Shown one piece after another: positions 33,001-51,327 of a stretch of DNA of 64,000 nt. Origin of the DNA: Eutreptiella sp. 'Long Island Sound 2002' (taxonomy: Eukaryota > Euglenozoa > Euglenophyceae > Eutreptiales > Eutreptiaceae); contig OZ038402.1 in NCBI GenBank assembly GCA_964036045.1, positions 11,029,513-11,093,512 of the forward strand. The letters are read 5' to 3'. The notes under the pieces are model-generated. The model was not told the origin of the DNA. It ran no database searches and saw only the letters and a list, made by a program, of their open reading frames with translations. Made by a program: the position numbers and the translations under genes. The first letter of the stretch is position 1. Every line of letters begins with the position of its first letter.

Positions 33001-35526
33001 TTTCACCCTATTTGGGTATTGGGCGCACGGGGGGGGTCCTCCCAAGGGATTGGTACACAACGTCTCTCTGCAGTTTTCACCCCGGACAGCTCAAAAATCG
33101 AAGGTTTCGAAATCTGTTTTTTTGATATTGTGGCCACCTAAAATGACCATCCAAGGTATGTAAAGCATGTTTTAGGCCGTATTTACATGTTTTTCACACT
33201 TTTTGGGTATTAGGTTCGGGGGGGGGGGGGGGGTCCTCCCAACACAAAGTTGGTGTTCTACGTAACAAAATTGGGCGTTGACAATGGTGAGACTCTTCAG
33301 TTGGGCTTACAACAACAAGCACGGCGGAGCATGCATAAGAATGTTGTGATCACCTAAAATGATCATCCAAGCTATGTAAAGCATATTTTAGCTTGTATTT
33401 ATATAGTTTTTACCCTATTTAGGGTGTGTGTTGCTCGCGGTAGATTCTCTGCGAGGTGGACTTGCCGAAGGCAATAGAATCACCTCGCAGAGGTTGTTAG
33501 ATCAAAGCCAGGCAGGCGTATATAGGGGAAACCGCCACATACCCCCCATTTTGGCCATTTTGGGGCTATTCGCGTACCCTACCCCAAGGGGTTGAATTGT
33601 TAGTTTAACCCCTTGTAAAATCATTATTTTGTCCAATAATCGCATCCCCCAATGAGTTTTTGGTCCGGACCCCCCCAGACCCCCCCCACTTGAAACCCAC
33701 TTTTTTGAGGTTTTGAGGGAGGGGGGGGGGGTGGGGGTGGGGGGGGGGGGGTGGGGGGGGGTCAAAAAATGACCCCCCCTTTTTTTGGGTCGAAAATCAC
33801 GAATCTTTTGGTTTTTTTCGATTTTGAGCCGAAAAACTTTTTCCGGGTCCCGACTCTATGGGGTTTGTATGGGGCGGAGTGGGACGAGCGCTTATGCAGT
33901 TTATGCACTTTTCAGCCATTTTTGCTATGTTCATCGACCTCGGTGACCCCGTGGTACCTACTCTGAGGGGTGCAAGTGGGGATGTTGTGACAGTATATGC
34001 CTACTAGGATACGGAAGGACGTTTTTTGCAGTCTCTAGCCTTGCCTGGGGCCGTCCACAACCCGTGCCAAAGACGCGAAATGACTGTTTCCACCAATAAT
34101 GGCCTAGTGAATGGGCCAGTACACAACCTGCTTATGCACCTCGCAGAGGTTGTTAGATCAAAGCCAGGCGTATATAGGGGAAAACGCCACATACCCCCCC
34201 ATTTTGGCCATTTTGGGGCTATTCGCGTACCCTACCCCAAGGGGTTGAATTGTTAGTTTAACCCCTTGTAAAATCATTATTTTGTCCAATAAACGCATCC
34301 CCCAATGAGTTTTTGGTCCGGACCCCCCTAGACCCCCCCCACTTGAAACTCACTTTTTTAGGGTTTTCAGGGAGGGGTGGGGGTGGGGGTGGGGGGGGGG
34401 TCAAAAAATGAACCCCCCATTTTTTGGGTCGAAAATCACGAATCTTTTGGTTTTTTTCGATTTTGAGCCGAAAAAGTTTTTCCGGGTCCCGACTCTATGG
34501 GGTTTGTATGGGGCGGAGTGGGACGAGCGCTTATGCAGTTTATGCACTTTTTCAGCCATTTTTGCTATGTTCGTCGACCTCGGTGACCCCGTGGTACCTA
34601 CTCTGAGGGGTGCAAGTGGGGATGTTGTGACGGTATATGCCTACTAGGATACGGAAGGACGTTTTTTGCAGTCTCTAGCCTTGCCTGGGGCCGTCCACAA
34701 CCCGTGCCAAAGACGCGAAATGACTGTTTCCGCCAATAATGGCCTAGTGAATGGGCCAGTACACAACCTGCTTATGCACCTCGCAGAGGTTGTTAGATCA
34801 AAGCCAGGCGTATATAGGGGAAAATGCCACATACCCCCCCATTTTGGCCATTTTGGGGCTATTCGCGTACCCTACCCCAAGGGGTTGAATTGTTAGTTTA
34901 ACCCCTTGTAAAATCATTATTTTGTCCAAAAAACGCATCCCCCAATGAGTTTTTGGTCCGGACCCCCCTAGACCCCCCCCACTTGAAACCCACTTTTTTA
35001 GGGTTTTCAGGGAGGGGTGGGGGTGGGGGTGGGGGGGTGGGGGGGGGTCGAAAAATGACCCCCCCTTTTTTTGGGTCGAGAATCACGAATCTTTTGGTTT
35101 TTTTCGATTTTGAGCCGAAAAAGTTTTTCCGGGTTCCGACTCTATGGGGTTTGTATGGGGCGGAGTGGGACGAGCGCTTATGCAGTTTATGCACTTTTCA
35201 GCCATTTTTGCTATGTTGGCGGTTTTGGCGACCTTGGTGACCCCGTGGTACCCACTCTGAGGGGTGTGAGTGGGGATGTTGTGACAGTATATGCCTACTA
35301 GGATACGGAAGGACGTTTTTTGCAGTCTGTAGCTTTGCCGAGGGCCGGTCAAATGCCCGTGCCAAAGACGCGAAATGGCTATTTCCACCAATAAAGGCCT
35401 AGTGAATGGGCCGGTACACAACCTGCTTATGCAGTTTTTCACCCCGGGCAACTCAAAAATCGAAGGTTTCGAAATCTGTTTTTTTGATATTGTGGCCACC
35501 TAAAATGACCATCCAAGGTATGTAAA
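30018..35526 (+). repeat. Tandem array of Helitron-like units, cut by the scaffold gap
   Basis: Left ends (CACCTCGCAGAGG) occur at 30,018, 30,343, 33,481, 34,137 and 34,777. Right ends (CTCTGCGAGGTG, then TTGCCGAAGGCAA and TAGAAT) occur at 32,120-32,153 and 33,447-33,480. The last units repeat every 640-656 bp. A 300-bp block (TTTTGAGCCGAAAAA to GGCCTAGTGAATGGGCC) appears five times (30,657; 32,168; 33,820; 34,457; 35,102). No protein is encoded that I can support. Confidence 0.8.
30960..33240 (+). repeat. 190-200 bp tandem satellite inside the array
   Basis: About ten copies, recognised by TCAAAAATCGAAG at 31,004, 31,200, 31,391, 31,590, 31,790, 31,981, 32,515, 32,707, 32,897 and 33,090. 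Each has GGTACACAACCTGCT and ACCATCCAAGGTATG-type segments and a variable poly-G run. Confidence 0.9.
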
Positions 35527-35905: not shown

Positions 35906-37110
35906 TTGAACGTTTGAGCTACACGCGGTCTTTTTGCAAAACTGCCGTTCAGGAGCACTTTTTTTTTCTCTTAAGGACCCCCCTGCAGCCCCCGCTGCGT
36001 GAGGCCGTGCCTTTCTATCGCCGCCGCATTAGATTGCTCATCAATGCATGCGTCTCGACGTGCCCCTGCGTGCCCGCGCCGGACTTTGCAGCTGCCTGAA
36101 GGGGGGAGGGAGTTCCACATGGGGACACTGGGGGGGTTGCAGGCGCGGTGCGCGTGCGGTGCACACACGGTGTGTACAGTGGGGGTGTGCCCAGCGTCAC
36201 CACCATTCGGGGTTCCTTAGGGCCCTCCGAATTCACGCCGGACAAGTATACCATCTCCGGAGGACCTCAAAGGGACACTATTTTGAGGGCTTCTGATGGG
36301 GCACTATTTGTGATAGATTCCATCCAATAGCGGTGCAAGCACGATGTGCAGCCAGCCCACTGTTGGGCGATTCCTGTGCTTTGTTTGTGGTGTTTTACCC
36401 GCCCCCCCCTCTCCCTCCGGCTCTCTGGATGCCCTGTGCGCGAAGAAAATGAATCCATTTGGGCCGTTCGGACGCCCGGCCGCCAACAACACGGATGCAG
36501 GTGGGTTCCGTGCACACCCCGTACGCCAATGAGATGAAGGGTGTTTGGCGCTCCGCATGGGCAGTAGGGCTTTCAACTGGATGGGGGGGGGGGGGCTCAA
36601 GAAATCCCCCCAAACCTGGGGGGTGGGGCGGTCTGTTGTTATGGATCAGTTATTATGAACTTGGGCGCCAAAGGCGCCGAAAATTTTTTTGAGCATTAGC
36701 CATGGTCAAATTTGTTTTCACCAAATGCATGGCAAATGATGACTTTTCTGAACCTCTCGACGCGCTGATTCCAAAAATGCCATTTTCATTTTTTTGCCGA
36801 TTTTTGGGTGTGGGTCACCTCCGAGGACCCGGGGCTCAGTCTCGGTAGGATTTTGGGGGTCCCGTCAATTGAGCCCCTGTTGGGGTGGATTGAGGTCTAG
36901 CCAGGGGGCTCTATGGACGCCCCCCCCCCTCCAATTGAAAGCCCACCTGCCCCATGCCCCACATGCAAACAAGGCCCTTGGATCAGCACACCCCCTAGAA
37001 CCCCCCCCCATCCGGACAACAGTGACCATTGTGGGAAAGAACGAAATTTGCCATTGGGAACATATGCTTGGGCCATTTTTGGTACAAGCACTTTTACGGC
37101 CCAGACCCCC
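35906..37110. other. No recognised gene
   Basis: Open frames here are short and overlapping. A GGCGCCAAAGGCGCCGAAAA motif at about 36,664 also occurs near 55,355. Confidence 0.35.
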
Positions 37111-37116
37111 CCCTCC

Positions 37117-37345
37117 TCTAATACATCCCTTCCCCCCCCCCCCCCTCCCTCTCCTCCAATCCCCCCCCCCTCCCCCTCCTCCAATACATCCCCCCCTCCC
37201 CCTCCTCTAATACACCCCCCCCTCCTCTAATACCCCCCCCCCTCCCCCTCCTCCAATACACCCGCCCCCTCCCCCTCCTCCAATACATCCCCCCCCCCTC
37301 CCCTTCCTCCCATACATCCCCCCGCTCCCCCTCCTCTAATACATC
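37117..37345. repeat. CCCCCTCCTCTAATACATC minisatellite, cluster 1
   Basis: Units of about 25-30 bp made of C/T-rich sequence plus TCCTC(C/T)AATACATC. Related clusters are at 48,667-48,760, 51,328-51,424, 52,749-52,790 and 54,174-54,373. Two element insertions sit exactly at such clusters. Confidence 0.85.
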
Positions 37346-37497
37346 GTGATGTCTTTATTGTAAAAACCAGAGGTTTTGAGCGGCTAACGGAAGATGACTG
37401 CATTGTTTGCACTGCCTGTCAAAGATGTGCTGTTGCCTGTGTACATTAGTGCAATGCATGTTTTAGTGCATTTTTGATTTGCTTCCATGGGTGATGG
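37346..37497 (+). repeat. Outer element repeat A1
   Basis: 152 bp beginning GTGATGTCTTTATTGTA and ending CCATGGGTGATGG, matching 48,347-48,497. Confidence 0.9.
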
Positions 37498-37548
37498 TAC
37501 TCTTGCGCTGGAAGTCCTGCTTGATTTTGCTAAGCAGGGATTTGATTT

Positions 37549-38642
37549 GTGGTCGGAGTACCTGGGTCCAACATCTTGGAGCGGGCAGCCAACACCACGT
37601 GGAAACGTATGACCAACATGGAGGGTGGTGCTGGCAGAGTGACTCAAGCCCTGACTCGAATATCCCCGGAACAAATCGGAGACCACCAAAAATTGTGGAA
37701 CCCGTTGACAGCGTATGAGCTCTGGTCTGGTCACATCTTGACGTCGCCGGCTTTGGTGTTTGTCCAGGATGGTTTAAGCTCTGTGCTGGAGCCGGGATGG
37801 GAAGTACAGCCGCAGCAGTACAGGAATGGCTTCGTTGAGAAGGTGCGAGCTGGGAGGGACCATCACCCTGGTGGTCAGACGGCGACTCAGTGTGGAAAGA
37901 GTGGTACTAAGCCGCCAGTGGACAGCTTTGCGACCGAGCCATCCCAGACGGATGACGATCAGCATATGGCAGACCTGGAGAGAGGCCAGCTGAACTTGGA
38001 GGGGGCAGCAGAGGTGGTGAATCAAGCAAAGGGGGTCTTCGAAGAAGAACATGAAGATGTTGCGCAAGAGGCCCGGGGCTCCCAAGTATGTGCGCCACTT
38101 TGTGAAATTAATAAGTGAATTTGCGGAGGAGCATGATGGGGCAGTGGAATTTGGCCCGGGTGCGGTGAAAATTTGGGAGGTGCTGCCGGAATGCGATGAA
38201 AAGGGGCAAAAGCACTTGAAAGATGAAGAAAAGATCCGGAGGTCAAAGGAAAAAAGAACGCAAAACGAACGAGAAGTGGCGGGCAAGGAAGAAGAGCGAG
38301 AGGGCGCGCAAGAGCAAGAAAAAGAAGTCGTCTAGGTCTGGGAAGTGGAGTGATTCGAGCTCTGATAGCTCTTCGACGTCGGATTCGTCGTCGGGGTCCA
38401 GGTCTGAGGATCGTTCTGAGCTGGAAAGCTCCAGCAGTGGAGATCGAAAAGACAGGAGAAATGGGGGTGCTGAGCGCCGATCCAGGCCTAGCCAATTTGA
38501 GTTTCGCTGGATCAACGGCAAGAAACACTTCCGAATGCGGAATAGCCAGTGGCAAGACTGCTCTGGACCACCGAGTAAGGAGTGCAGGTACTGTGGGAAG
38601 AGGCACTGGGCGTTCCAAGCCCAGGAGTTCGGTTGCAGATGA
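37549..38642 (+). pseudogene. Outer element Gag-like region, frame-shifted
   Basis: Three overlapping frames read in succession: 37,549-38,118, 38,051-38,335 and 38,223-38,642. The first is mixed alpha-type sequence with no named domain. The second and third are Lys/Arg/Glu-rich, then Ser/Asp-rich (SSSDSSSTSDSSSGS). The end has a single zinc-knuckle-like motif, CRYCGKRHWAFQAQEFGC. Position at the 5' end of the element, charged composition and the terminal Cys/His cluster support a Gag role in RNA binding and particle formation. The inner element's Gag also ends in a Cys/His cluster. The frame changes indicate decay. Confidence 0.55.
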
Positions 38643-38649
38643 CATGCAG

Positions 38650-39552
38650 GCTCGGGGGGGGGGGGGGGGCGAGATCCGCGATGAGGAGGCGACGAGATTA
38701 CGAAATGGCCTTGAAGAATTCGTGGCGGCGGAAGGAGAACAATTCGGGTCATCCTACGCATCAGTACTCCGGGGGAGGTTGGAGCCAGGCACCAGACTGG
38801 GGTATGTGGCGGCACTGCGGCAATTCCTCAGGTACCCGCGCGTCCATGGGTGGTTATCCCCGAGGGAGGCCCTGGAGGGGCGATTGTTGGAGATTGCAAG
38901 GGATGGGTACTTCGAAGGGCCGGTCAAGAAGGTGTTATCTGGATTCAGGATGGCGGAGAAAGCAGGGGTCATATAGCCCCTGGTACGAGGATCGGATTGG
39001 ATTTTCGCAAAATCCCTGGAGAAACTTCGAAAGAAAAAGAACAGCAGGTGGATACAGTGGTCACCGTCAGGAATTCTGTATGAGGTGGCAGCCGGCAAGG
39101 GAACGCTCACGTGGCCGGAAATGGAGTGCATTGCACTGGCAGCATTGTCGCCATGCAACCTGTTACGCATTGGAGAGGCATGGACAGCCCACCGCAGCGG
39201 GTTGGGTCAACTGGTACTCCAAGGAGAAAAGAGTGACCCGGGCATCCAGGTGCAGGATGTGGGGCCGTGGGCCGACAGATGGCCACGCTTCCTCGACGAG
39301 GAGAGACGCAGGAGGGGGGGGGATGGTGCAGTGGCATACAATTTCTCATCCCCGAGCGAGTTGGAAGCCAAGTGGGTCGAGTTGGTCGCTGGGACGGGCC
39401 ACAGATCATTTCGCTGGCATGGCCACCAACATGGAGGCGCAGCACAGGCATGGGCAGCTGGGGCTCGGGGTCCCCTCCTGCAGCTCATGGGGGGGTGGTG
39501 TACGCCATCAGTGGCGCTCTCGTATGCAACGCCGACTCACGCGTGGGATTTC
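38650..39552 (+). pseudogene. Outer tyrosine recombinase, main part
   Basis: One frame runs from about 38,650 to 39,552 with a single TAG at 38,974-38,976. The N-terminal SAM-like core-binding part (GTRLGYVAALRQFLRYPRV) is followed by the catalytic part: Arg I in LLRIGEAW (codon 39,166), then WHGHQHGGAAQAW, where the usual H-x-x-R reads H-x-x-Q (39,418-39,429), and WCTPSVALSYATP with the candidate Tyr nucleophile. The frame is cut at 39,552 by the inner element and resumes without phase change at 46,206. The recombinase would integrate circular cDNA. The premature stop and lost Arg II suggest it is inactive. Confidence 0.75.
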
Positions 39553-39617
39553 ACTAGTTGTGCCTCGTCTCAACTTTTGTTTGCGTCTCCAATGTTTAGG
39601 CAGTTTTCCTGTCTTTG
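39553..39617 (+). repeat. Inner element repeat A1 (left terminus)
   Basis: 65 bp starting ACTAGTTGTGCCTCGTCTCA, identical to 45,861-45,925. Confidence 0.93.
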
Positions 39618-39630
39618 TTTTTGTTAACCC

Positions 39631-40263
39631 ATGGACGGGGTTGAGCAGCCTAATCAGAACCAACAAGAGTCAGCCGAGGAGCGGCTGGCGGCACAAGCCA
39701 AAGAAATTCAAGAACTCAGAGAGCAACTCGCCCGAGTGGCAGTGAAGGAGGGGCCCCGCCTGCCCCCACTGAGCGTGCCAGAAGTAAACCGAGCCCTCGA
39801 GAAGCCCCAGTTGGCACAGTGGATGAGACTCATGCTGTCCAACATCAAGGCGTACGTACGCCTTAGAGCTGGTGAGGTGGGGGAGATCCCCCGACCAAGT
39901 GAGTTTGGCGGCCAGGCAACGGAGGCCGCAGTCACCCCAGGAGAGCAGCTGGCGTGGAGGGTCTGGGACTGCGTGTCCCAGTCCCAGGCGGCGTACGCCC
40001 GCAGGTATGCAGGGACGCACGGGAAATCCAGCTCCGAGTCCAACCAGTACACCACGCTGCAGGAGGCATGGAAGGAGCAAGGGTCGGCGTTCACGTGGCG
40101 GAGCGTGAAATTCAGGGAGGTGGGAGGAGTACTGCAATGGCAGTCGAGGCAGGGCGAGTGGATCCCTGTGGACTCGCCGCCGGGCGGAGGGTGCCAGAGG
40201 TGCGCGCAGCGGGGCTCCCCCGACGAACGCCACTTGCACTTTAGATGCCCACACTGGTCCTGA
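39631..40263 (+). CDS. Inner element Gag-like protein
   Basis: An ATG 14 bp after repeat A1 opens a 210-codon frame ending in TGA (40,261-40,263). The N terminus is a charged coiled coil (EERLAAQAKEIQELREQLAR). The middle is alpha-rich without a named domain. The end has a Cys/His cluster, CQRC..DERHLHFRC, likely a zinc-binding nucleic-acid contact. The recombinase continues in the same frame after the TGA with no further stop until 40,903, so Gag-recombinase expression by readthrough is possible. It would package the element RNA. The family is not otherwise recognised. Confidence 0.65.
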   Translation: MDGVEQPNQNQQESAEERLAAQAKEIQELREQLARVAVKEGPRLPPLSVPEVNRALEKPQLAQWMRLMLSNIKAYVRLRAGEVGEIPRPSEFGGQATEAAVTPGEQLAWRVWDCVSQSQAAYARRYAGTHGKSSSESNQYTTLQEAWKEQGSAFTWRSVKFREVGGVLQWQSRQGEWIPVDSPPGGGCQRCAQRGSPDERHLHFRCPHWS

Positions 40264-41570
40264 CAGGACCGGCTGGAGCCCGGACCGGCCGCCCCGGGCT
40301 CCGGTGTTGCGGACACGGCGGCAGAGCTGCGGGCGCTCGCCCGCCGGTGGGAGACAGCAGCCTGGTCAGACGACCCCTGCTCACCGGAGGAAAGCGCCAT
40401 GCAGTCCTGGAGACCGAGAACCCGCTCGCAGTACGCGTCCCGACTCCGGGCCTTGGCGGCTTACGCGGGCCGCAAGGGCCCGCCTGATACAGCCGCGGCA
40501 CTGGCAGGCCTCCTGGCAGAGCGGGCCCAAGCCGGCGCTACAGCGTCAGCCCTGCGGGGTATTACCTCCGCGGTCCGGGCCGTGGAGGACCTCCAGTGGC
40601 TGCCCCCAACAGTCACCACCTTGCACAAGCGGATTGCGGCGGGAGCCGCATCCTCGGGCTCTCAGCCCTATCTGTCCCCAGCAGGCTTGGTCCAGCTGGT
40701 CGAAAAGGCCAGAGACTCCAGACACGGAGCGGTGTTCAGCGCATTGGCCATCATCAGCTGGGTGTGCTACCTGCGGGTGGGCGAAGAAGCTGGCATCCGG
40801 GTTACTGACCTGGCTATGCCAGGCTTTGTCCAGTTTTGGAACTCCAAGACAGGGGAGGAGGGGTATACCACCCGCCCCCTGTACAGGTATGCGGACGGCG
40901 TCTAGGCGTGGCTTCATGGCCACATGGTTTCGCTGGGCCGATCCTCAGACATGCTCGTCTGGCAGTCAGGGGAAGCGGGGTTGGAGGCAGGCATGGCCGA
41001 AACCCTGGCGAGCACCGCCCACTCCCGAGCCAGGTGGCACGCCCTGCGCAGGGGAGGCGCCGCAGCGACTTGGGCCCGTAAACCAGACCTCGCCTACTAC
41101 AAATGGTGGGGCAGATGGCAGAGCACGGCCGTGGCGATGCAATACGGCACCAAATGGTCAGACCCGGGAGTCGTTGCCCCTACGGTGCTGCCCGCATGGT
41201 CCCGTGACCCGGGGCCTTTGCCGACTCCGGAACGCGTGGGCCTCCTGGCCCTGTGGGGATCCCCGATGTTCCCCAGTATCGCGAGCGCCCTCAACACCCC
41301 GACCAAGCGCAAGCCCAGACTTCCGCGAGGTCAGGAGCTGGAGTCCACTGCGAGAGGCATGCTTGGGGGAGGAGGCGACGGAGACCAAACCGCGACCGAG
41401 CTGGAGGAATCCCCAGGGGACGGCTCTGCTGAGATGGGCCCGGGGCCTGACACAGCTCCTACCCTCCCTCCACTTCCTCCTTTGGCCTCTGCCATTGAGC
41501 GCGGCGCCGTGTCTCGGGAAGATGCGGGTCAGCTGTGCACGGTGGCGGGGCCTTTGGTTGCCGTGGGGGG
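40264..41570 (+). CDS. Inner tyrosine recombinase, one in-frame TAG
   Basis: In frame with the Gag-like gene and open from 40,264 except for a TAG at 40,903-40,905. The SAM-like N-terminal domain (RSQYASRLRALAAYAG) is at about 40,425-40,470. Arg I is in CYLRVGEEAG (about 40,775). WHALRRGGAAATWA (41,035-41,075) supplies H-x-x-R, and WWGRWQSTAVAMQY ends in the Tyr nucleophile (41,143-41,145). All catalytic residues are present, unlike the outer copy. A Ser/Pro-rich tail leads to a poly-G run (41,566-41,577), after which an acidic, then basic segment with PKRIKLGQ continues in another frame (41,580-42,074). A possible MATG restart lies after the TAG at 40,924. Confidence 0.72.
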
Positions 41571-41577
41571 GGGGGGG
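41448..41577 (+). repeat. Internal repeat of the inner element (3 copies)
   Basis: About 130 bp from GACACAGCTCCT through GCCATTGAGC, GGAAGATGCGGGTCAGC and GCACGGTGGCGGG to a poly-G run. Copies are at 45,135-45,262 and 45,573-45,704. The first is coding, the others are in the 3' region, so the sequence was duplicated within the element. Confidence 0.8.
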
Positions 41578-42089
41578 CGTGCGGGCCGGGGACGGCAGCC
41601 GGGCCCATCAATGTCGATTCCGACGTGGACACCGACGACAACAGCGAGGATTCCGGAAGCGAGCCCTCTGGCGAATTCGCAGTCGGCAGCGCCAGGGGCT
41701 CCCCCGGGCGTCGACAGGCCGGAGTTGCCAGGTTCGTTGGGCGGGAGCGTAAGCCGTGGTCCTCCAGGGCAGCCGTTGGCCCTGTCAGAGGAGGACCCGC
41801 AGCGGGCTCGAAAGCTGGAGTGGTGGGCCGTGTCCACCGCACAGACACGGGGCCGCGTCGCGCTAAGGTGGTCCTGGGTGGTACGCAGGCCGTGCGATCC
41901 CGAGCCCCCGCACGCCGTCAAGTTGGAAGACCTCGTTTGGTCCAGCAGATCGGAACGCCGCAGCCCAAGCGCATCAAGCTCGGGCAAGGCGGGCATGTCC
42001 CGACGCCGGAGGCGCAAGGCCCGGTGGAGGGTGCCTTCGTGGCTGCAGCTGAGCGTCTCAAGGCCAAGGCTTGAGGGAGGGCGGGCCCA

Positions 42090-44066
42090 GTGGCATCGCC
42101 CCCCCCCCCCCTCTGTAAGGGTCCCGACAGGGGTGGGAGGGTGCAGGAACAACCCCCCCTCTTCCTGGAGTTCATGCAGGCACTCACCCCCCATTTTCAC
42201 TGGATAGCCGAGCGGGAACGTTGTGGCTTGTGGATGGTTGCGAAGAGGGTGGATTTGTGGTTGAATAGAGTATTCGATACAGCCGAGGATTTCCGCTTGC
42301 AAGGGGCTTTACCCGCTCTCCGGGGCGCCTTGCGCAAGCTCCACCCGGACGCCTGGGAGGCATGCCTCCATATCAACACCTCCCCCATTCCGCGGTTCAT
42401 GGGGGGGGGTCGAGGATGCCATTTTGGACCGGGGACTGGGGCCGATAGGCTCCCACCAGCTCCCTAACGATCTGTGGGACGCTGTCGTACCGCCCTTCTA
42501 CCGCGGAGGGCTCCAGGATTTCGACGTCGAGCGGGAGTGGCAGGACGGGGATAGGGTGGTCCGAGGGGCAACCAGTTGGTTGTCTGCAGGTCCAGAGGAT
42601 AGTGCAGGCGTTGAGGGGGGCGGGGGTCTACGAGGAGACGGCTGACCCCCCCCCCCCCCACGTGTTACCCCTTCGTCATCCCCAAATCCTCCGAGAAGGT
42701 ATCCTTGATCTTGAGTTGCGTCAAGATCAACAAGAGTGACGGGGGCAAGCCCCCCACTTTTAGATTGGATTCCTGGGAGCATTTGGCTAGGTCCTTGTCG
42801 GCATTCCCGCCTGATGTGGACCTCTACGGCCTCCACATTGACCTCAAAAATGCGTTCTGGAGCTTTTGCTTGCCCCAGGGTGCGCGCCAGGTTTTTCGCT
42901 TCCGGCCCACCCCCGGGGCTCCGCCTGTGGCGCTGTCGCGCCTTCCATTTGGCTGGAAATACAGCCCCTATCTGTGCCAAACGAGTTTGGCTCGCATTCT
43001 CCAGGGGGTACTGCCCCCCGAGATACTCCTTGTGCACTACCTCGATGACTTTTTGCTCGTCTTCACTGATAGGGAGGTGCTCAGGGAGGCGGGGAGAGTG
43101 GCAGTGCGTGCCCTGATCGAGGCTGGGTTCCTCATAAGTCCTAAGAGTGTCCTGGACCCGGTGCCTGTGGCATCATTCCTGGGGAAGGAGCTCGACTTGC
43201 AGGCTAGGCAGATCAGGAGCCATGAACAAGCACTGCTCCAGCTGTGGGCGGGATGGCTGAGGCTGGCGGTTGGCGCAGGCAACGACCGGCACCTCCAAAG
43301 CTTCGTGGGTTTGCTGAATTGGCATGTGCGTCCGAGGGGATTGGGTTGCCCTTTCGCGGCGGGCGCCTACTGCTGGTTGCGCTGGGGTAGGATGGTGGGG
43401 GGGGTCGAACAGCCGGCCCAGGGCTTCCCCCTGAAAGTGCTGGGCAGCCTCGCCACATTGGTGGCGGTGGCGGCCGAGCCCTGGCAGGCGCCGGGCGGGG
43501 AGGCCTGGCGGCAATTGAGGGCCCTCCGGTTTGGGACTGAGGATAGGCTTTCGCGATCCTCTCTGTGGTGCGGGGGCGTCGTCATCTGTGTCGATGGAGC
43601 GCGCGATGCGGGGTGCTGGAGGGTGGGGGCGCTCGTGCCGGGAGTGGGTGTGCGTACGCATGTGACACCTCCTGCCCGCTTCGCCAGCCAGCAAACCACG
43701 GAACTGAGGGGAGTGGCGTGGGCTGTCAGGTTTGCAGTCAGGACAGGACACCGATCTGTTACGGTCTGTAGCGACAGTGAGGCGGCCATTGCTCAGGTCC
43801 TCAGACTGCGCGCGACTAGCCACCTGACCCACCACCAAACGGTCCTTCGGTCGTTGGCTAGGGTCCTGTGGGTATCAGGGATCGTGCTCCGCCTCGTGTG
43901 GGTGCCCTCGGCGCTTCAGCCGGGAGACCCTATGTCCAGGGTGACGTCCGTGTTCGGAGGCTCACAGGCCAGAGCGGAAGTCGAGGCTTGGTGCACGTGG
44001 GATGCATTGCTGGAAAATCTGGGCGAGGCTCGGGTGAGGGGGGTGGTGTGTCTCCGGGGATGCTAG
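42090..44066 (+). CDS. Inner reverse transcriptase/RNase H
   Basis: The frame from 42,090 shifts at the poly-G run 42,402-42,410 and shifts back at the poly-C run 42,647-42,659; otherwise it is open to a TAG at 44,066. Motifs in order: fingers PFVIPKSSEKVSLILSCVKI (42,664-42,730), motif A LHIDLKNAFWSF, motif B PFGWKYSPYLCQ, motif C HYLDDFLLVF, then ISPKSVLDP and FLGKELD. RNase H follows: VICVDGARDAGC, TTELRGVAWAV, TVCSDSEAAI and VWVPSALQPGDPMSR. The polymerase core with aspartates intact suggests recent activity. The two phase changes lie only at homopolymers and could be sequencing errors. It copies the element RNA into cDNA in the Gag particle. Confidence 0.8.
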
Positions 44067-44160
44067 CCCCCTCCCCCCCCCCCCCCCCCCCCAGCAGACC
44101 AGCGGCGGCAGTGTATGCGCCCTCCATGTAGCAACCTTTTTTTTTTTGCTATCCGCACCG

Positions 44161-44670
44161 ATGACCAAGCGTCGGGGCTCGCGTGGGGCCCACAAGCGAC
44201 GGGGTTCCCGTGGAGCCCGCCGAAAGGGTCGCCATGGCGGACAGCGGCACCAGCGTTCCGCAGACGCACAGCAGCACCGGGCGGCGAAGTGGAGCAGCGT
44301 GCTCCGCACCCGCCTTCGCGGCAGGTTGGCGCGCCTGCCCATCCGCCGGGTGCTGCTCGGCAACGGGGTGCGCCTGTGCCCCCAGTGCCCCCTCCCTGAC
44401 GACAGGGAGGGGTTTTTGGAACGGGCGGTCCGGGACGTGGCCGCACGCGTGGGAGGCACGCCGCACCGCCGCACGACCCCCGACGGCCGCAGCGTCAAAC
44501 CCCCAGGGCGGCATGCCTGCTGCCAGGTCTGGGAGGTAAGGCTGCCAGAGGGGGTCGCAGTGGTCTCCCTAACGGACTGGAACCAGGGACGCAGGGTTGC
44601 TGTACCCTATATATGGATCCAACCCCGTTTTGGGCTGGTGTTGCAATTTGCCCGCCTCTTCAACCCGTGA
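44161..44670 (+). CDS. Extra ORF of the inner element, unknown
   Basis: A 169-codon frame from ATG 44,161. The N terminus is very basic, with three GSRGAHKRRGSRGARR-like repeats. The middle has LCPQCPLPDDREG with a CxxC pair. The C-terminal half is strand-rich (CCQVWEVRLPEGVAVVSL, VPYIWIQPRF). It is not the methyltransferase-like domain of some DIRS elements, as far as motifs show. Its position after RNase H and before the terminal repeats suggests an accessory or nucleic-acid-binding protein. Confidence in coding rests on length and composition only. Confidence 0.4.
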   Translation: MTKRRGSRGAHKRRGSRGARRKGRHGGQRHQRSADAQQHRAAKWSSVLRTRLRGRLARLPIRRVLLGNGVRLCPQCPLPDDREGFLERAVRDVAARVGGTPHRRTTPDGRSVKPPGRHACCQVWEVRLPEGVAVVSLTDWNQGRRVAVPYIWIQPRFGLVLQFARLFNP

Positions 44671-45818
44671 GATCTGACGACTGTCGTCGTCGTCTGTGCC
44701 TACCCACTGCAGTGGGTGTCCCTGACGGCTTGGCCGCTGGGTGCTGATTTGGTTTTGTATTTTTGGGTTGCTGGAGCTGACGGCCGGGTGCTGGGAATGA
44801 CCGCCTTTTACCGTCAGTGCGACTCAACGACAGTCGTGTTCGCCTGTATCTGCCCTCTGCAGAGGTTGACTCCGACGGCGTGGCCGCTGGGTGCGCCTGC
44901 TTTGTTGTCTTTTTACTTGGTTGGCGGCACGGCCGCTGGGTGCTTTATTTATTCACCTTTTTGGCCAGCCTCACTCCGCATCTGACTGACGGCCGGTTGG
45001 TGCGATTTGCCCGCCTCTTTGTCCGCAGGGCACGGCGACCGTCGTGATCGCCTGTATCTGCCCGCTGTGGTGGCTGTCCAGGGCGACATGGAGGAGTCCG
45101 CCGGACGTGGCGCTGCGGATATAAGCTTGGTGCACGACACAGCTCCTGCCTTCCCTCCACCTCGGCCTGGGGACTGCCATTGAGCACGGCGGCGTGTCTC
45201 AGGAAGATGCGGGTCAGCAGTGCACGGTGGCGGGTCCTCTGGTTGTCGTGGGGGGGGGGGGGGGCGGGGGGGTGCTGCTGTTTGTTCTGCCCTTTTGCTG
45301 GATTGCTACCTCGGTGCACATCCCTCTGGGGCTGGGGTTAGGTAGTGGACCCTGTGGTGGATACCTGGATACGGCGGAGACCTTTTTGGGCCTGCCTCAC
45401 GCCGAATCCGGCTGGGGCTGACGGCCGGTTGGCGCGATTTACCCGCCTTATTTGTAGGGGCACGGCGACCGTCGTGACCACATGTGTCTGTCCACTGTGG
45501 TGACTGTCCGTGGCGGCGTGGCCGCTGGAGGAGTCCGCCGGGGGTGGCGCTGCTGACTTGGGCCCGGTGCCCAACACGATTCCTGCCCTCCCTCCACCTC
45601 AGCCTCTGGCCTCTGCCATTGAGCGCGGCGCCGTGTCTCGGGAAGATGCGGGTCAGCACTGCACGGTGGCGGGTCCCCTGGTTGCCGTGGGGGGGGGGGG
45701 GGGTTGCTTCTGTTGCTTTGCCTTTTGCTTGATTACTTCCTCAGTTCACATTCCTCAGGAGCTGGGATCCGGATGTGGGACCTGTGGTGTGGGAACTGGG
45801 TACAGCGGAGAATGAATA
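44671..45818 (+). repeat. Degenerate 3' repeats of the inner element
   Basis: Several diverged units of about 200 bp with GGCCGCTGGGTGC, GACGGCCGG(T/G)TGG, CGCCTGTATCTGCCC and CGGCGACCGTCGTGA, plus the two extra copies of the 41,448 repeat. I see no gene. Confidence 0.65.
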
Positions 45819-45860
45819 CCCAAGTCCTGTGCAGTTTTCTTGTGCTCTGCTTGTGCAAAC
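45819..45860 (+). repeat. Inner element repeat B1
   Basis: 42 bp, CCCAAGTCCTGTGCAG to TGTGCAAAC, identical to 46,164-46,205 and directly followed by A2. Confidence 0.93.
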
Positions 45861-45925
45861 ACTAGTTGTGCCTCGTCTCAACTTTTGTTTGCGTCTCCAA
45901 TGTTTAGGCAGTTTTCCTGTCTTTG
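45861..45925 (+). repeat. Inner element repeat A2
   Basis: Identical internal copy of 39,553-39,617. Confidence 0.93.
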
Positions 45926-46163
45926 CCCACCCACCCACCCACTGACCGGCTGACCCCCTGAGAGCACCTGCCCTTTCCTTTCCCTTTTGAAACCGATTCC
46001 CTCGGGTAGAGTGGGGGATCTAACCGTGCTGCAGCGTGTGGACCAGGGTATAGGGTCAGGGTCCGTTTCAGAGCGGGGTCCCGCATCCAGCGGAGTGGTC
46101 CGCAGCGCACCCGTCCATACAACCGCCGGTATTCCGGCCTTGGTGATACTTCAGTACTGCCAT

Positions 46164-46205
46164 CCCAAGTCCTGTGCAGTTTTCTTGTGCTCTGCTTGTG
46201 CAAAC
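46164..46205 (+). repeat. Inner element repeat B2 (right terminus)
   Basis: Identical to B1. The next base, 46,206, resumes the outer recombinase frame. Confidence 0.93.
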
Positions 46206-46487
46206 GAGAGTAGACGCCGACAGCCAGTCCCAGTGCGTGAAGGAGGGGAACTCAAAGTTGCGTTTGGAGAGTGGTCAGTCCTTCAGTGGTGGGGTACGTG
46301 GGTCCGAAGAGAAATCCGTGAACTCGACCGTGGTGCGGCCGAGAATGGCGCGATAGTGGGAAGCGTTGACGTAGCCAGAAAGCGGAGAAGGGCAAATTCA
46401 ACAGGAGCTGGAGCGTTCAGGTTTGACCCGGAGGCAGTGGAAGATTCGACTGATGAGGGAGAAGGTATTGCAGATGCAGGAGACTAG
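46206..46487 (+). pseudogene. Outer tyrosine recombinase, displaced C-terminus
   Basis: Starting at the first base after inner repeat B2, 94 codons stay open in the phase expected from 39,552 and end in an acidic tail (DSTDEGEGIADAGD) and TAG. Before insertion this was continuous with 38,650-39,552. The frame of the next gene overlaps its last 65 bases. Confidence 0.75.
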
Positions 46488-47980
46488 TGATGTGGAAATT
46501 GGAGGGGTACTGCAAAAATTGATTGATTCGAGCCCAAAGGCGTTGGAGAGCGACTTGGAAGAGGGTTTGTTGGTCCTATTATCGGGTGTAATGGAGGTTG
46601 CAGGCTCCCAGGCTTTGGGAGCATTGACCTCTGTGCTGCAGGCTCTGGACACAATGCCGGAGGATGATTGGGAAGATGAAGATGAGGAGAGTTATTACTC
46701 TGATGAGGACGGAGAGGAAGACGTCAGCCCCGACCTGGCGGGCACGGGCATTAGAGAGTGTGGGAGGGTACAGCTCAGTGAGTCGCTGTGGAGAAGAGCT
46801 GTGCCTGACGACTTGTTGGAGAAATATCGAGAATGGTTGAAGGATACGGGGGGGGTTGGTGGCAGTAAAGGAGTGGGAGTGAAAGAGATGCTTGAGAGCC
46901 TGGTGGAGGGGGGTTCTTTGCGTTGGGTGCCACAATCGATGGGTGCTTGATGGGGGCCCTGGCAGAAAATTCTGTTTTTGATCTGCAGGTGCTCCCGTTG
47001 ACTTATCTTGATGATATTTTAGCGGCAGGGGCGCGCAGAGATCTGAAAAGGGCAGTGCGTAGGTTGAGCGGCAAGCTGCAGAGGGCTCGTTTTGTGGTTA
47101 GCCCGAAGTCCAGCTTGGAACCAACTAGAGTGCTCGATTTTGTGGGGGAAATTTTTGATACCCAGAGGAGGCGTATGGAGAACAGGAAAGGAACGGTGAC
47201 TGCATTGCTGCGGAGTTGGCTCAGGCTGAGGTTGGGTCTTATGCGCAGAAAGGGGTTTGAGAGATTTTTGGGGAGGTTGGAGTGGGCTCTGCGACCGCAG
47301 GGAGGAACAGCCCCGTTTTTGGCGGGAGCGTACAAGTGGAAGTTGTCATGTGAACAAAAAGTTCCGCTCAGTCTGGTGAGGCCGTTGCTTACGGCAGTGG
47401 TATTTTCTGTTTTACCCCAGTGTTATGTTGGCCAGCCATACGTGTGACGGGGGCCTCCTTGTTCCGTGTAGGATTTTATTATTTTCGTTGACGCTGCTCC
47501 TAGATCCAAACGCGGTTTCCGTTATGGGTTTTTCGTGCCTGGGAGTGGAATCAGGTGCTATAAGTGCCCTGCGTGGATTGCCTGCTGATTGAGTCGCTTC
47601 AGCAGGCTGAGTTGTTGGCTTTGGTGCAAGCGTTCAAGATAGCAAGATATGAAGGTTGGCGTAGGGTGGCTGTAGGTTCAGAAAGTTTGGTTGCCAGGAG
47701 TTAGGTGTTGGGCTTGCGTTGTGGGACGGCTTTACCCGTCCAGAACCGTATTTTGCGCCAGCTATTTTGGTGGAGGCGCTAGAGCAGAGTGCAGTTAGCT
47801 GTATTTTATGTCCCTTCGGATAGAAATCCGGCGGATCCGCCGAGCCGCAGACCTCGATTCGTTGATAGAGAGGCATGCAGGACAGCGGCAGAAGACAGGT
47901 ACGTGATGTGGAAGGAGATGCCTAGACCGTTTCATTATTTTGGATCGGTGGCTCCTTTTCCGTGGCCTGCAGGCCAGTGA
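46423..47980 (+). pseudogene. Outer reverse transcriptase/RNase H remnant
   Basis: The first frame (46,423-46,950) is acidic and helical with LWRRAVPDDLLEKYREWLK, the region before the polymerase. A second frame (46,923-47,447) has LTYLDDILAAG (motif C, YxDD), VSPKSSLEP and a thumb-like segment, but motif A and most of the fingers/palm are missing between about 46,935 and 46,988, so there is an internal deletion. RNase H pieces follow in shifting frames: IFVDAAPRSKRGF, QAELLALVQAF and VFYVPSDRNPADPPSR. It is non-functional. Confidence 0.7.
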
Positions 47981-48251
47981 TCAGGGGGGGGTGGAGGGTG
48001 CGGGTGCAGGGCAGGACGCCGGTTTCCAGTTGGCTGCCCAGATGGTCCCTCTGGCCTTCGTGGCTGTTGATGGGGCTTGAAGGGCGCAACAGAGGATGGC
48101 GTACAATGCTGGTTTCGTTTTTGATTGATCTTGAGGACGTTCGTCCTATTTTACCGGTATGTGCTTTCCGGTTTGGTTGCTCGGGTGGACAGCTGGTGCG
48201 TCTGTGACGACGACAGTGACCGTCCTTAGAAATATCCATTTCTCTGGGGTA
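47981..48251 (+). other. 3' untranslated part of the outer element
   Basis: No frame of interest between the RNase H remnant and repeat B1. Confidence 0.4.
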
Positions 48252-48346
48252 GGAGTATGCCTCAGTGGCATTGGCTGTCGTCTGGTTTCAGAAAGCACTG
48301 GATTCTGTCGTGCATGTATGCAGCTCGTTTTGGAGTTAGTCTAAAA
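48252..48346 (+). repeat. Outer element repeat B1
   Basis: 95 bp from GGAGTATGCCTCAGTGGCAT to TTAGTCTAAA, matching B2 at 48,573-48,666. It directly abuts A2. Confidence 0.9.
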
Positions 48347-48497
48347 GTGATGTTTTTATTGTAGAAACAGAGGTTTTGAGCGACTAACGGAATATGACTG
48401 CATTGTTTGCACTGCCTGTCAAAGATGTGCTGTTGCCTGTGTACATTAGTACAATGCATGTTTTAGTGCATTTTTGATTTGCTTCCATGGGTGATGG
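48347..48497 (+). repeat. Outer element repeat A2
   Basis: Internal copy of A1. The B1-A2 junction is what a circle made by joining the two element ends would contain. Confidence 0.9.
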
Positions 48498-48572
48498 GCC
48501 CACTTGCCCACCCTTCTGTATCTTTACCCATCTCAGAATGGGTCTTCAGGACTCTGCATTGCTTGTAATGCT

Positions 48573-48666
48573 GGAGTATGCCTGAGTGGCATTGACTGTC
48601 GTCTGGTTTCAGAAAGCACTGGATTCTGTTGTGCATGTATGCAGCTCGTTTTGGAGTTAGTGTAAA
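48573..48666 (+). repeat. Outer element repeat B2 (right terminus)
   Basis: Terminal copy of B1. It is followed at once by the C-rich minisatellite that also borders the left end. Confidence 0.85.
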
Positions 48667-48679
48667 CCCCCCCCCTCCT

Positions 48680-48936
48680 CTAACACATCCCTGCCCCTCC
48701 CCTCCCCCTCCTCCAATACATCCTCCCCCCCCCCCTCCCCCTCCTCCAATACATCGCCCCCCCCCCCCCCCTCCCATGCAAGATGCGGCCACTGCAGCGG
48801 CGTATGGGCTGCAGCTCGGCCTAGACATCCCGCCCATCCCGAGCGCGGCGCACGCCACAGAGATCGCATCCCTCACGGGTATGTGGCACACTTCGGGCCT
48901 GGGCAACCATCAAGGCGGCCTCCAGCCATGCCACCG
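48680..48936 (+). repeat. 257-bp duplication flanking the second LINE, left copy
   Basis: From CTAACACATCC through the C-rich minisatellite, ATGCAAGATGCGGCCACTGC and GGCACACTTCGGGCC, to CATGCCACCG. The right copy is 51,328-51,587. The two are nearly identical, with differences mainly in poly-C length. Confidence 0.9.
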
Positions 48937-51327
48937 TTACTGTCACGCCGGCCCAACTGGGTTGGTTTCAAATGGACATCAATTTGCCTTGGATCTCCCT
49001 CCCCTATTTAGCCTTTAGTGCAAAGTCTTTCTCGCTCCTACGACAAGGTTTGAATGTTAACCCTCCAGACGCTCTGAGCTACGATATGCCCCTGTGGCAC
49101 AATGTTTTGTTCAAAAACGCCCATTTCCATACGTATTTGTCACCATCGCTCATCAGGGAGGGCATACTTACAGTGGGACAGCTACTGGAAGACGACTCCT
49201 ACCTGAATCAAATCGCCCCCACGTGGCGCCCGATATACAGAGAAACCATTGGCCAGCTTGCCAATCAGACTTTCGTATTTTCTGAACACTCACGACAGAC
49301 GCCCTGTGATCTGTCATCACTAATCTCTGATTGGCAGAGAGGCCCAGCCCTCGCCGTGATGTCCTACCCTAGGAACAGGGAACGGCGCCAGCCGGATGAG
49401 GTCTGGCAAGCTCTGATGTCTTGCAGACTGCCGACATCTGACATAGATTTTATTCGAAAAACGCTGTGGCGTAAACAACCGGTAGGAGACAGGCTTAAGT
49501 CTTGGAAGCCTGACCGCCTGCTTTGCCCCTTGTGCCACGTGCCTGAAACTATGGCCCATATGATGCTGCACTGCAAATTTCTACCTTTCGTTTTTCCCAT
49601 CATCGACCAATGCTTCCCCCCTTATGTCGTTGGTGGGAAGCACATATCATCGGTGGCGGAACTGATTGAACACCACCCTGCAGAGTCTCTGCATCTCCTT
49701 CCTGGACAATTGGGCTGGGCAGCGATAGAGGCCAACTGGGCCATCCGCTGTAAAGCCGCAAAAGAGCACAATTCTTTTCGCTCGACATCCTACTTCTTAA
49801 AAGTCTACGGACAGTTGCTGCACAGGTGGCAGCAATCCAAAGCACATGGAATCCGCCCAGAACAATTGTCCGCCTTCCTGGATCTGCTCATGTCTCTCCG
49901 GCGGGGGGATTCAGCGGACAGACCGCAGCTTGAGCCCACCCCCCCCACACCGCCCCCCACCAAAGCACAGCTGCGTGCCAAACGCAGACTCGAACGCAAG
50001 ATGCGCTCACTACACAAACTGATTGCTCACCTTGACAGCCTTGAAGACCAGGGATATATGTTGGTCTTTACAGATGGCTCATCAGAGCGCTTCGAGGGGC
50101 TTGGTTATGTGGGGGGCTATGGGGTCTTTTCAACCCTCCCAGTTTCGCTGTCTGCCCCAGTGCCGCTGCACATGAAACAAACTATTAACGCGGCAGAACT
50201 CCTGGCGGCACTGCAGGCCCTACGGCTGCATGCCGATGAGCCTAAGATTGCCATCTGCACGGATTCTGAGTATGTCCTTAAAGGGGCGCAGGGAGCGGCG
50301 CGCCGGTGGCAGGCGAGAGGTTGGGTGGGATCGGCGGGACCTGTGTCAAATATCCCTCTCTGGATGAGCTACTGCAGCTTTTGGATTCCACTTTTCAAGA
50401 TATTCTGTGGGTGAAAGTTCCCTCCCACGTGAATGTGGAAGGTAACGAGCAGGCCGACACCCTGGCTAACAATGGTAGACTCAGCAACCCCCTGTACCCA
50501 GCTCGGAAGACCCCCAGGGTCCAAGCGGCAGGGCAACGCGCCAAACGGGCACGCCAGGTAGCGGCTCGGAGTCCCCCCCCCCCCCGGGGTGTGTCCCCCC
50601 CGCGCCCAATCGTACTGAATTTTGAGCAGTGTATTGCTTCACCAGGACCAAGAGAGGAAACCCCGGATGTCCCTTCGGATCAGGGGCATGAGAGTGATGT
50701 GTGGCTGCAATTGGGTTTAGTTGAGATGCCAGACAGCCCGAGGAGCGAGGAGTCTACGCACAGCCACCTGTCGAGTGTTCCCACAGTCACCAATCACTCG
50801 GAAGGGCCGGGGACCCCCACAACCCCATTTTGTGTCAGGATCCCGCATACAAGGGGGGGGAGGCGCAGCCCTTCAACGTCCTGCAGCGAGCACGGATCCA
50901 CAGAGACCCAAACCCCCCCACCGGCGCCTGACACCGCATACAACGGGGACGGGAATCGGAGCCCCTCGACCTCATGCAGTGAACGGGGTTTTTCCTAGGG
51001 CACTTTGCTTTTGGGTTGTTGTGACGCTGGGCACCATACTTGGTTTTGTTCATTGTGATGCCCTATTTGTTCTGACACGACAGGTGCCCTATGTGTTTGG
51101 CGCTGGCACACGAAGGTTATATGTTATGCTATCAGGCTTGGCAGCTGCCGCCTGCTCCCAGTGTGCGCCCGCTTCCAGGAAGCGGCATGTCGGATGCTCG
51201 TGTACATATCAGGCTGTGTCTTAACGACTGGATGTAGCATAGCAGTTGATTGTGGACAACACCTGGAACATTGGCTGGAATTGCCTGGGCGGGGGCATCC
51301 AGTATCTGTGACCGACCATGATTGAGC
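48937..51327 (+). mobile_element. 5'-truncated LINE (zf-RVT + RNase H part)
   Basis: A 2.4-kb insertion lies exactly between the two copies of the 257-bp duplication. It contains only the post-polymerase half of a LINE and about 330 bp of 3' untranslated sequence without a poly-A tail. The same family occurs at 23,679-25,264. Confidence 0.8.
48972..50998 (+). pseudogene. LINE post-polymerase region: zf-RVT linker, RNase H, Pro-rich tail
   Basis: The frame runs from 48,972 (the true start is lost by truncation) to about 50,355, where a one-base shift moves it into the frame ending at 50,998. Early residues have LFKNAHFHTYLSPSLIR and similar thumb/connector sequence. Then come WRKQPVGDRLKSWKPDRLLC, CPLCHVPETMAHMMLHC (zf-RVT), and RNase H with FTDGSS, NAAELLAAL, CTDSEYVLKG and, after the shift, VPSHVNVEGNEQADTLAN. 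The tail is Pro/Ser-rich with KRARQVAARSPPPP. RNase H would remove template RNA during target-primed reverse transcription. With no polymerase and a frameshift this copy is dead. Confidence 0.8.

Follow-up and report, generated by a model that had tools for sequence, protein, structure and literature searches.

Structure of the nested elements

The window, a 64,000-nucleotide stretch of contig OZ038402.1 from Eutreptiella sp. 'Long Island Sound 2002' (GCA_964036045.1), contained two tyrosine recombinase (YR) retrotransposons, and the inner one was inserted in the YR gene of the outer one (Table 1). The insertion comprised 6,653 bp and had no target duplication. The outer reading frame was joined in phase across it, with GAT-TTC ending at 39,552 and GAG-AGT beginning at 46,206, and its ends coincided with the split direct repeats A1 and B2, as the initial annotation had proposed. 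The frame downstream of the join was open as claimed, but for 93 codons (46,206–46,484, with the stop at 46,485) and not 94.

Uninterrupted outer copies were searched for in the genome (2.28 Gb, 2,205 contigs) using the half of the outer gene downstream of the insertion as a query, which gave 97 first-look candidates, 40 scored at 90–100% identity and 20 read. In all 20, the two halves were directly joined (GGGAATTC followed by GAGAGT, and variants), and the alignment continued across the junction gap-free, with no base gained or lost. Among 31 relatives of the outer YR at the protein level, nine also aligned gap-free across the join (P0102, P0104–P0109, P0121, and P0129). Relatives were also checked for a recombinase that was discontinuous at this junction, and the outcome was in favour of the nested insertion. 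Two further empty sites, one of the short copy L059 within a tandem repeat and one of an element nested inside copy L023, agreed with the exact ends. The boundary in the window was ambiguous by one base, a C being present at both 39,552 and 46,205; in the empty sites of the window, L059, and L023, the C to the left of the cut was that of the target. The element nested in the inner-family copy L023 (G000:C10, element positions 239–2112) was a related element of ~1.87 kb, which itself ended in B2[1-13] followed by B, where B[n] and A[n] denote positions within the repeats and E denotes positions within the inner element.

A sequence in which B runs into the outer gene at precisely this join was present at two places in the genome, the window and L142. 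In L142, a different copy of the outer element, ~17 nt of the outer gene were replaced by 36 nt of B. The same outer site was hit twice. The protein relative P0103 had the same arrangement as the window at this junction, and a tree of the outer YR fragments lacked the resolution to decide whether it shares the insertion with the window by common descent.

The inner element contained, on one strand, a gag-like open reading frame (ORF), the YR gene, the reverse transcriptase (RT), and an extra ORF. The A1 and A2 repeats were identical across 65 nt, and B1 and B2 across 42 nt. The RT matched RVT_1 in Pfam (E 4e-13, 50 bits, cut-off 29.6), and the RNase H region matched RVT_3 with 17.1 bits, below the cut-off of 21.6. 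The H, R, W, and Y residues of the inner YR were near-invariant across 29 aligned rows. No methyltransferase domain was matched by Pfam in the ORFs scanned, some frames of the decayed copy lying outside the scan, and scanning the window against Rfam and for tRNAs gave no matches. Both elements were damaged, the inner one by frameshifts and a stop codon, and the outer one by a stop codon that interrupted the YR frame. The outer YR relative P0122 matched Phage_integrase with 28.6 bits (cut-off 27.1); the outer YR in the window had HGHQ, and 11 of 12 aligned relatives had HxxR.

Table 1. Features of the inner and outer YR retrotransposons in the window
Feature	Position	Strand	Remarks
Inner YR retrotransposon, 6,653 bp	39553..46205	+	split direct repeats; site uninterrupted in all 20 outer copies read
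Left side of target, TGGGATTTC	39544..39552	+	target rule
A1 repeat, 65 nt, left end	39553..39617	+	same start at 278 genome places
ORF1, gag-like by position only	39631..40263	+	no Pfam match above curated cut-off
YR gene, frame broken by stop at 40,903	40264..42207	+	56 homologs; conserved residues
RT and RNase H-like match below cut-off	42615..44066	+	RVT_1 and RVT_3 scores
Extra ORF	44146..44670	+	no Pfam match
B1 repeat, 42 nt	45819..45860	+	
A2 repeat, 65 nt	45861..45925	+	
B2 repeat, 42 nt, right end	46164..46205	+	410 exact 42-nt places in genome
Outer YR retrotransposon, split by inner one	37346..48666	+	split direct repeats
Outer A1	37346..37497	+	
Outer YR gene, upstream part, stop at 38,974	38653..39552	+	
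Outer YR gene, downstream part	46206..46484	+	
Outer RT remnant, read by eye (YLDD)	46953..47447	+	no RVT_1 match in Pfam
Outer B1	48252..48345	+	
Outer A2	48347..48497	+	
Outer B2	48573..48666	+	

A C-rich tandem repeat around AATACATC flanked the outer element (37100–37340 and 48660–48770 of the window). Nearby, the ORF at 48972–50414 had zf-RVT (zinc-binding RT) and RNase H matches above cut-off and was probably a non-LTR (long terminal repeat) retrotransposon, and tandem copies of ~640 bp, 86–99% alike, were located at 33480–35430.

Target sequence and relationship to known elements

The left ends of sister copies were collected with a pattern that left positions -7 to -1 free and excluded nothing but G at -8, which gave 278 matches; 100 were listed and had 91 distinct 8-mers as flanks. 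Among the matches listed, position -1 was C in 91 of 91 distinct flanks, position -2 was T (47%), C (32%), or A (21%) and never G, and position -3 was A (76%), T (23%), or C (1%), with A or T in 90 of 91. The target rule was therefore W-H-C to the left of the cut, with the trinucleotides ATC (26), ACC (24), AAC (19), TTC (17), TCC (4), and CCC (1). Right flanks were obtained at 305 places, of which 100 were listed. Once one A2-like row had been removed, 93 distinct flanks remained; among these, A was present at +1 in 53%, with little other preference. An earlier T-C rule was rejected, because the copies had been ranked with a query containing the window's own flank.

The circle junction of the element itself is GCAAAC/ACTAG, in which AAC is the end of the B side. 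The targets shared with it the C at -1, mostly the A at -3, and often the A at +1, which amounts to a partial likeness and not to 3-bp identity. The initial annotation had suggested looking for a few bases shared by the target and the B2-A1 junction; this was borne out for single positions and failed for the trinucleotide, AAC being found in 19 of 91 flanks.

Four left ends (L110, L111, G000:C2:13436224, and C3:10439684; two read) had the flank TTTGATCC, and the right ends listed near them had ATTTTTGA in common. With both flanks in common, the insertion was apparently duplicated together with the surrounding repeat DNA. The left flank of L026 was (CCCTAA)n-like, as in telomeric repeats. The left end of the outer element came after ATC, the same target rule as in the inner family.

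The features of the elements pointed to the DIRS order. An RT above cut-off was present in the inner element; a YR was present in the outer element through its relative P0122, and in the inner one by its H, R, W, and Y motifs only. Target duplications were absent in 22 of 22 B-ended copies and present in two of four copies without B. The A1-B1-A2-B2 arrangement is that of Ngaro, PAT, and VIPER elements. Ngaro-like elements of Cafeteria burkhardae (PMC8547959) are alike in the A1-[ORFs]-B1A2B2 arrangement, in having RT and YR, no methyltransferase being matched in the ORFs scanned here, in nesting in other mobile DNA, and in the short AB pieces in the genome; they differ in the order gag, RT-RH, YR, whereas YR precedes RT here. 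The VIPER/TATE elements as described (PMC6681497) share the split direct repeats and the gag-like, YR, and RT/RH ORFs, and differ in host group. PAT-like elements, including Toc and Kangaroo, have split direct repeats (PMC4157794), and Kangaroo and Toc are also reported from algae. The methyltransferase that defines PAT-like elements was not found in the ORFs scanned here, and the YR gene, inverted in Kangaroo, was on the same strand here. DIRS1-like elements are alike in the gag, YR, pol order and, in the published model, in circle insertion without target duplication (PMC3266345). They differ in their inverted repeats and in a model that needs a target identical to the 3-bp junction, in contrast to the AAC count above. 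By comparison with these descriptions, the repeats fit Ngaro, PAT, and VIPER, and the position of YR before RT fits VIPER and DIRS1 but not Cafeteria Ngaro.

Right ends of sister copies

The 26 copies chosen by their left ends were read rightwards. The canonical right end, B1-A2-B2, was present in 14. Six copies were cut off at six different internal points and had no B1-A2, with B located directly at the cut (L021 at E3143, L019 at E3752, L017 at E4133, L013 at E5174, L020 at E5244, and L014 at E6184). In L015, B2[1-13] was followed by a full B. Four copies ended without B (L012, L025, L048, and L050), and the remaining copy, L052, was not classed. L009, L010, and L012 had a common left flank. 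At the seven unusual joins of these left-end-selected copies, the first base of B was B[1] in four, B[2] in two, and B[8] in one, so the boundary is not a search artefact.

A second set was selected for exact B and comprised the first 100 of the 410 places (34 pairs and 32 singles), of which the singles and the odd pairs were read. Thirty-one pairs were classed as canonical by their spacing of 342–353 nt, and the read places included 10 native B2 and 11 native B1 whose right end was not classed. Non-canonical right ends accounted for 14 of 55 classed ends: B was on shortened element sequence in eight (L014, L059, L060, L065, L069, L076, L082, and L087), after B2[1-13] in three (L015, L057, and L062), and on foreign sequence in three (L078, L081, and L085). 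The stretch with the lone B in L085 (G000:C5:56588000–56588850) occurred a second time at a distance of 541 nt, with the same sequences flanking both occurrences, as a local tandem duplication.

Furthermore, a pattern for B[1-16] downstream of non-native sequence matched at 17 places. Ten were read, of which eight were real joins (L133 and L135–L141) and two were chance 16-mers (L132 and L134); three more of the 17 resembled mutated native joins. The lone B of L135 was in a tandem repeat, with its right side at a site cut after ATC and 5 nt repeated on the left, as if the recombinase had joined one end and repair the other. In L139/L143, B1 was still followed by A2 and was joined to E6070 at B[1]. 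The form B2[1-13] plus B was found at 16 places in the genome, six with the window spelling and ten with a subfamily spelling, and four were read.

Lengths were obtained by pairing 90 of 100 listed left ends with 99 of 100 listed right ends. Among the 57 lengths, five were short (90, 95, 104, 105, and 122 nt), followed by none until 2,518 and a maximum of 7,628 nt. L059 (104 nt) had A[1-62] joined directly to B, L060 (122 nt) had 10 extra nt between A and B, and L136 had A1[1-6], 4 nt, and then B. The exact A[62]-B join was found at one place, with one more at two mismatches, so the A end of these mini-elements is not fixed. The exact ends and the lack of a target duplication seen in the window recurred in all 22 B-ended copies compared at both flanks, where the longest flank match was 0 nt in 20 and 1 nt in two. 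Among the four copies without B, L025 and L048 had target duplications of 22 and 7 nt, respectively.

In the outer family, 8 of 32 B starts came after sequence read as non-native. Four of these eight joins matched outer sequence within 2 substitutions, as against 15 of 300 random 13-mers. The joins appear similar to the inner ones, on weaker evidence.

Proposed formation of the right end

Elements of this class are usually modelled as integrating in circular form through the recombinase. The insertion in the window fits this model: a circular YR retrotransposon, opened at its B–A junction, would have entered an older element within the YR gene of the latter. From the anatomy of ends and flanks, the recombinase very probably joins the B–A junction of the circle to partly similar targets, in which -1 is C, -3 is mostly A, and +1 is A in 53%.

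For the right end, B would be copied first, from an RNA template that has B[1] as its 5' end, and the copied B would then jump to any available 3' end of element RNA. With an RNA ending at B2[13], the 13-nt overlap would give a perfect B2, and a jump without overlap would produce the form B2[1-13] plus B. Truncated copies ending in B would arise from shortened RNAs, and copies that failed to acquire B may integrate by a different route, one that generates target duplications. This model explains the fixed B start, the form with 13 additional nt, the join of L139/L143 at B[1], and the A-B mini-elements. The probability of the overall explanation, circle insertion together with B-first end formation, is estimated at about 0.6. 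Its more specific form, with B as a strong-stop piece that is copied first and moved to any 3' end of element RNA by B[1-13] as a short transfer repeat, is tentative and falls somewhat short of even odds.

Several observations weigh against this explanation. B started at position 8 in L017, and ~6 extra nt were present at the join in L021. The joins found by the exact-B and B[1-16] searches had been selected for a B start. Inheritance from a parent copy may account for the form B2[1-13] plus B; ten of its 16 places had one subfamily spelling. Bare ends near B2[13-14] were rare (L048 and one other place), and a dedicated pattern search for them gave a point mutant only. B without an A end, at six places (L078, L081, L085, L133, L135, and L142), is poorly explained, and L012 and L050 could be interrupted and not bare. 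That element RNAs start at B[1] and end at B2[13] is deduced from DNA joins. In addition, Pfam gave no recombinase match above cut-off for the inner YR protein, whose identity rests on motifs, and its structure model was poor (mean pLDDT, predicted local distance difference test, 38.5) and was not used.

The bridging model as usually drawn, in which the B1-A2 junction of one strand splints both ends of the linear complementary DNA, the gap is filled in, and truncated ends are ligated later, accounts for the canonical copies as well as for the split direct repeats; B1-A2 holds the junction sequence. It is unlikely overall: fill-in on the embedded B1 should pass B[1], but six of the seven left-end-selected joins stopped at B position 1 or 2, and these joins shared little or no sequence. 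The B-ended truncated copies might also be ordinary copies with later DNA loss, or internally deleted families that have spread. Internal deletions that keep B1-A2-B2 do occur (L011, L016, L018, and L026–L028), but the six truncated copies had six left break points and nearly one right break point, and this origin is disfavoured as improbable. A still smaller chance is given to the elements of 90–122 nt being solo AB repeats from recombination between the 5' and 3' repeats, the origin to which such pieces are attributed for Cafeteria Ngaro in the portion of PMC8547959 available, where B-ended truncated copies are not described. Their A and B content is the same, but recombination of A1 with A2 would leave A2 to B2 (345 nt, E6309–6653), none of the 57 paired lengths among the listed ends lay between 122 and 2,518 nt, and L059 joins A[62] directly to B. 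An assembly artefact found no support and has a negligible probability, as both the ends and the target rule are shared by many independent copies.

The nested insertion is an ordinary event, but it supplies a clean empty site. The sister copies suggest, from their sequences, that the short right-end sequence B was attached to finished and unfinished copies alike. No description of B added to truncated copies was found in the passages and listings of the literature searched, most subscription papers lying outside that search. The end completion of YR retrotransposons is known mostly as a drawn model, and the hundreds of copies in this genome (410 exact B places and 278 A1 starts) supply natural failures of that step. 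The truncated B-ended, 13-nt-repeat, A-B mini, and B-less copies make the order of steps testable. If the B-first model is true, the split direct repeats would be the footprint of two-template reverse transcription, and the truncated copies, those with 13 additional nt, and the A-B mini copies would be its natural failures.

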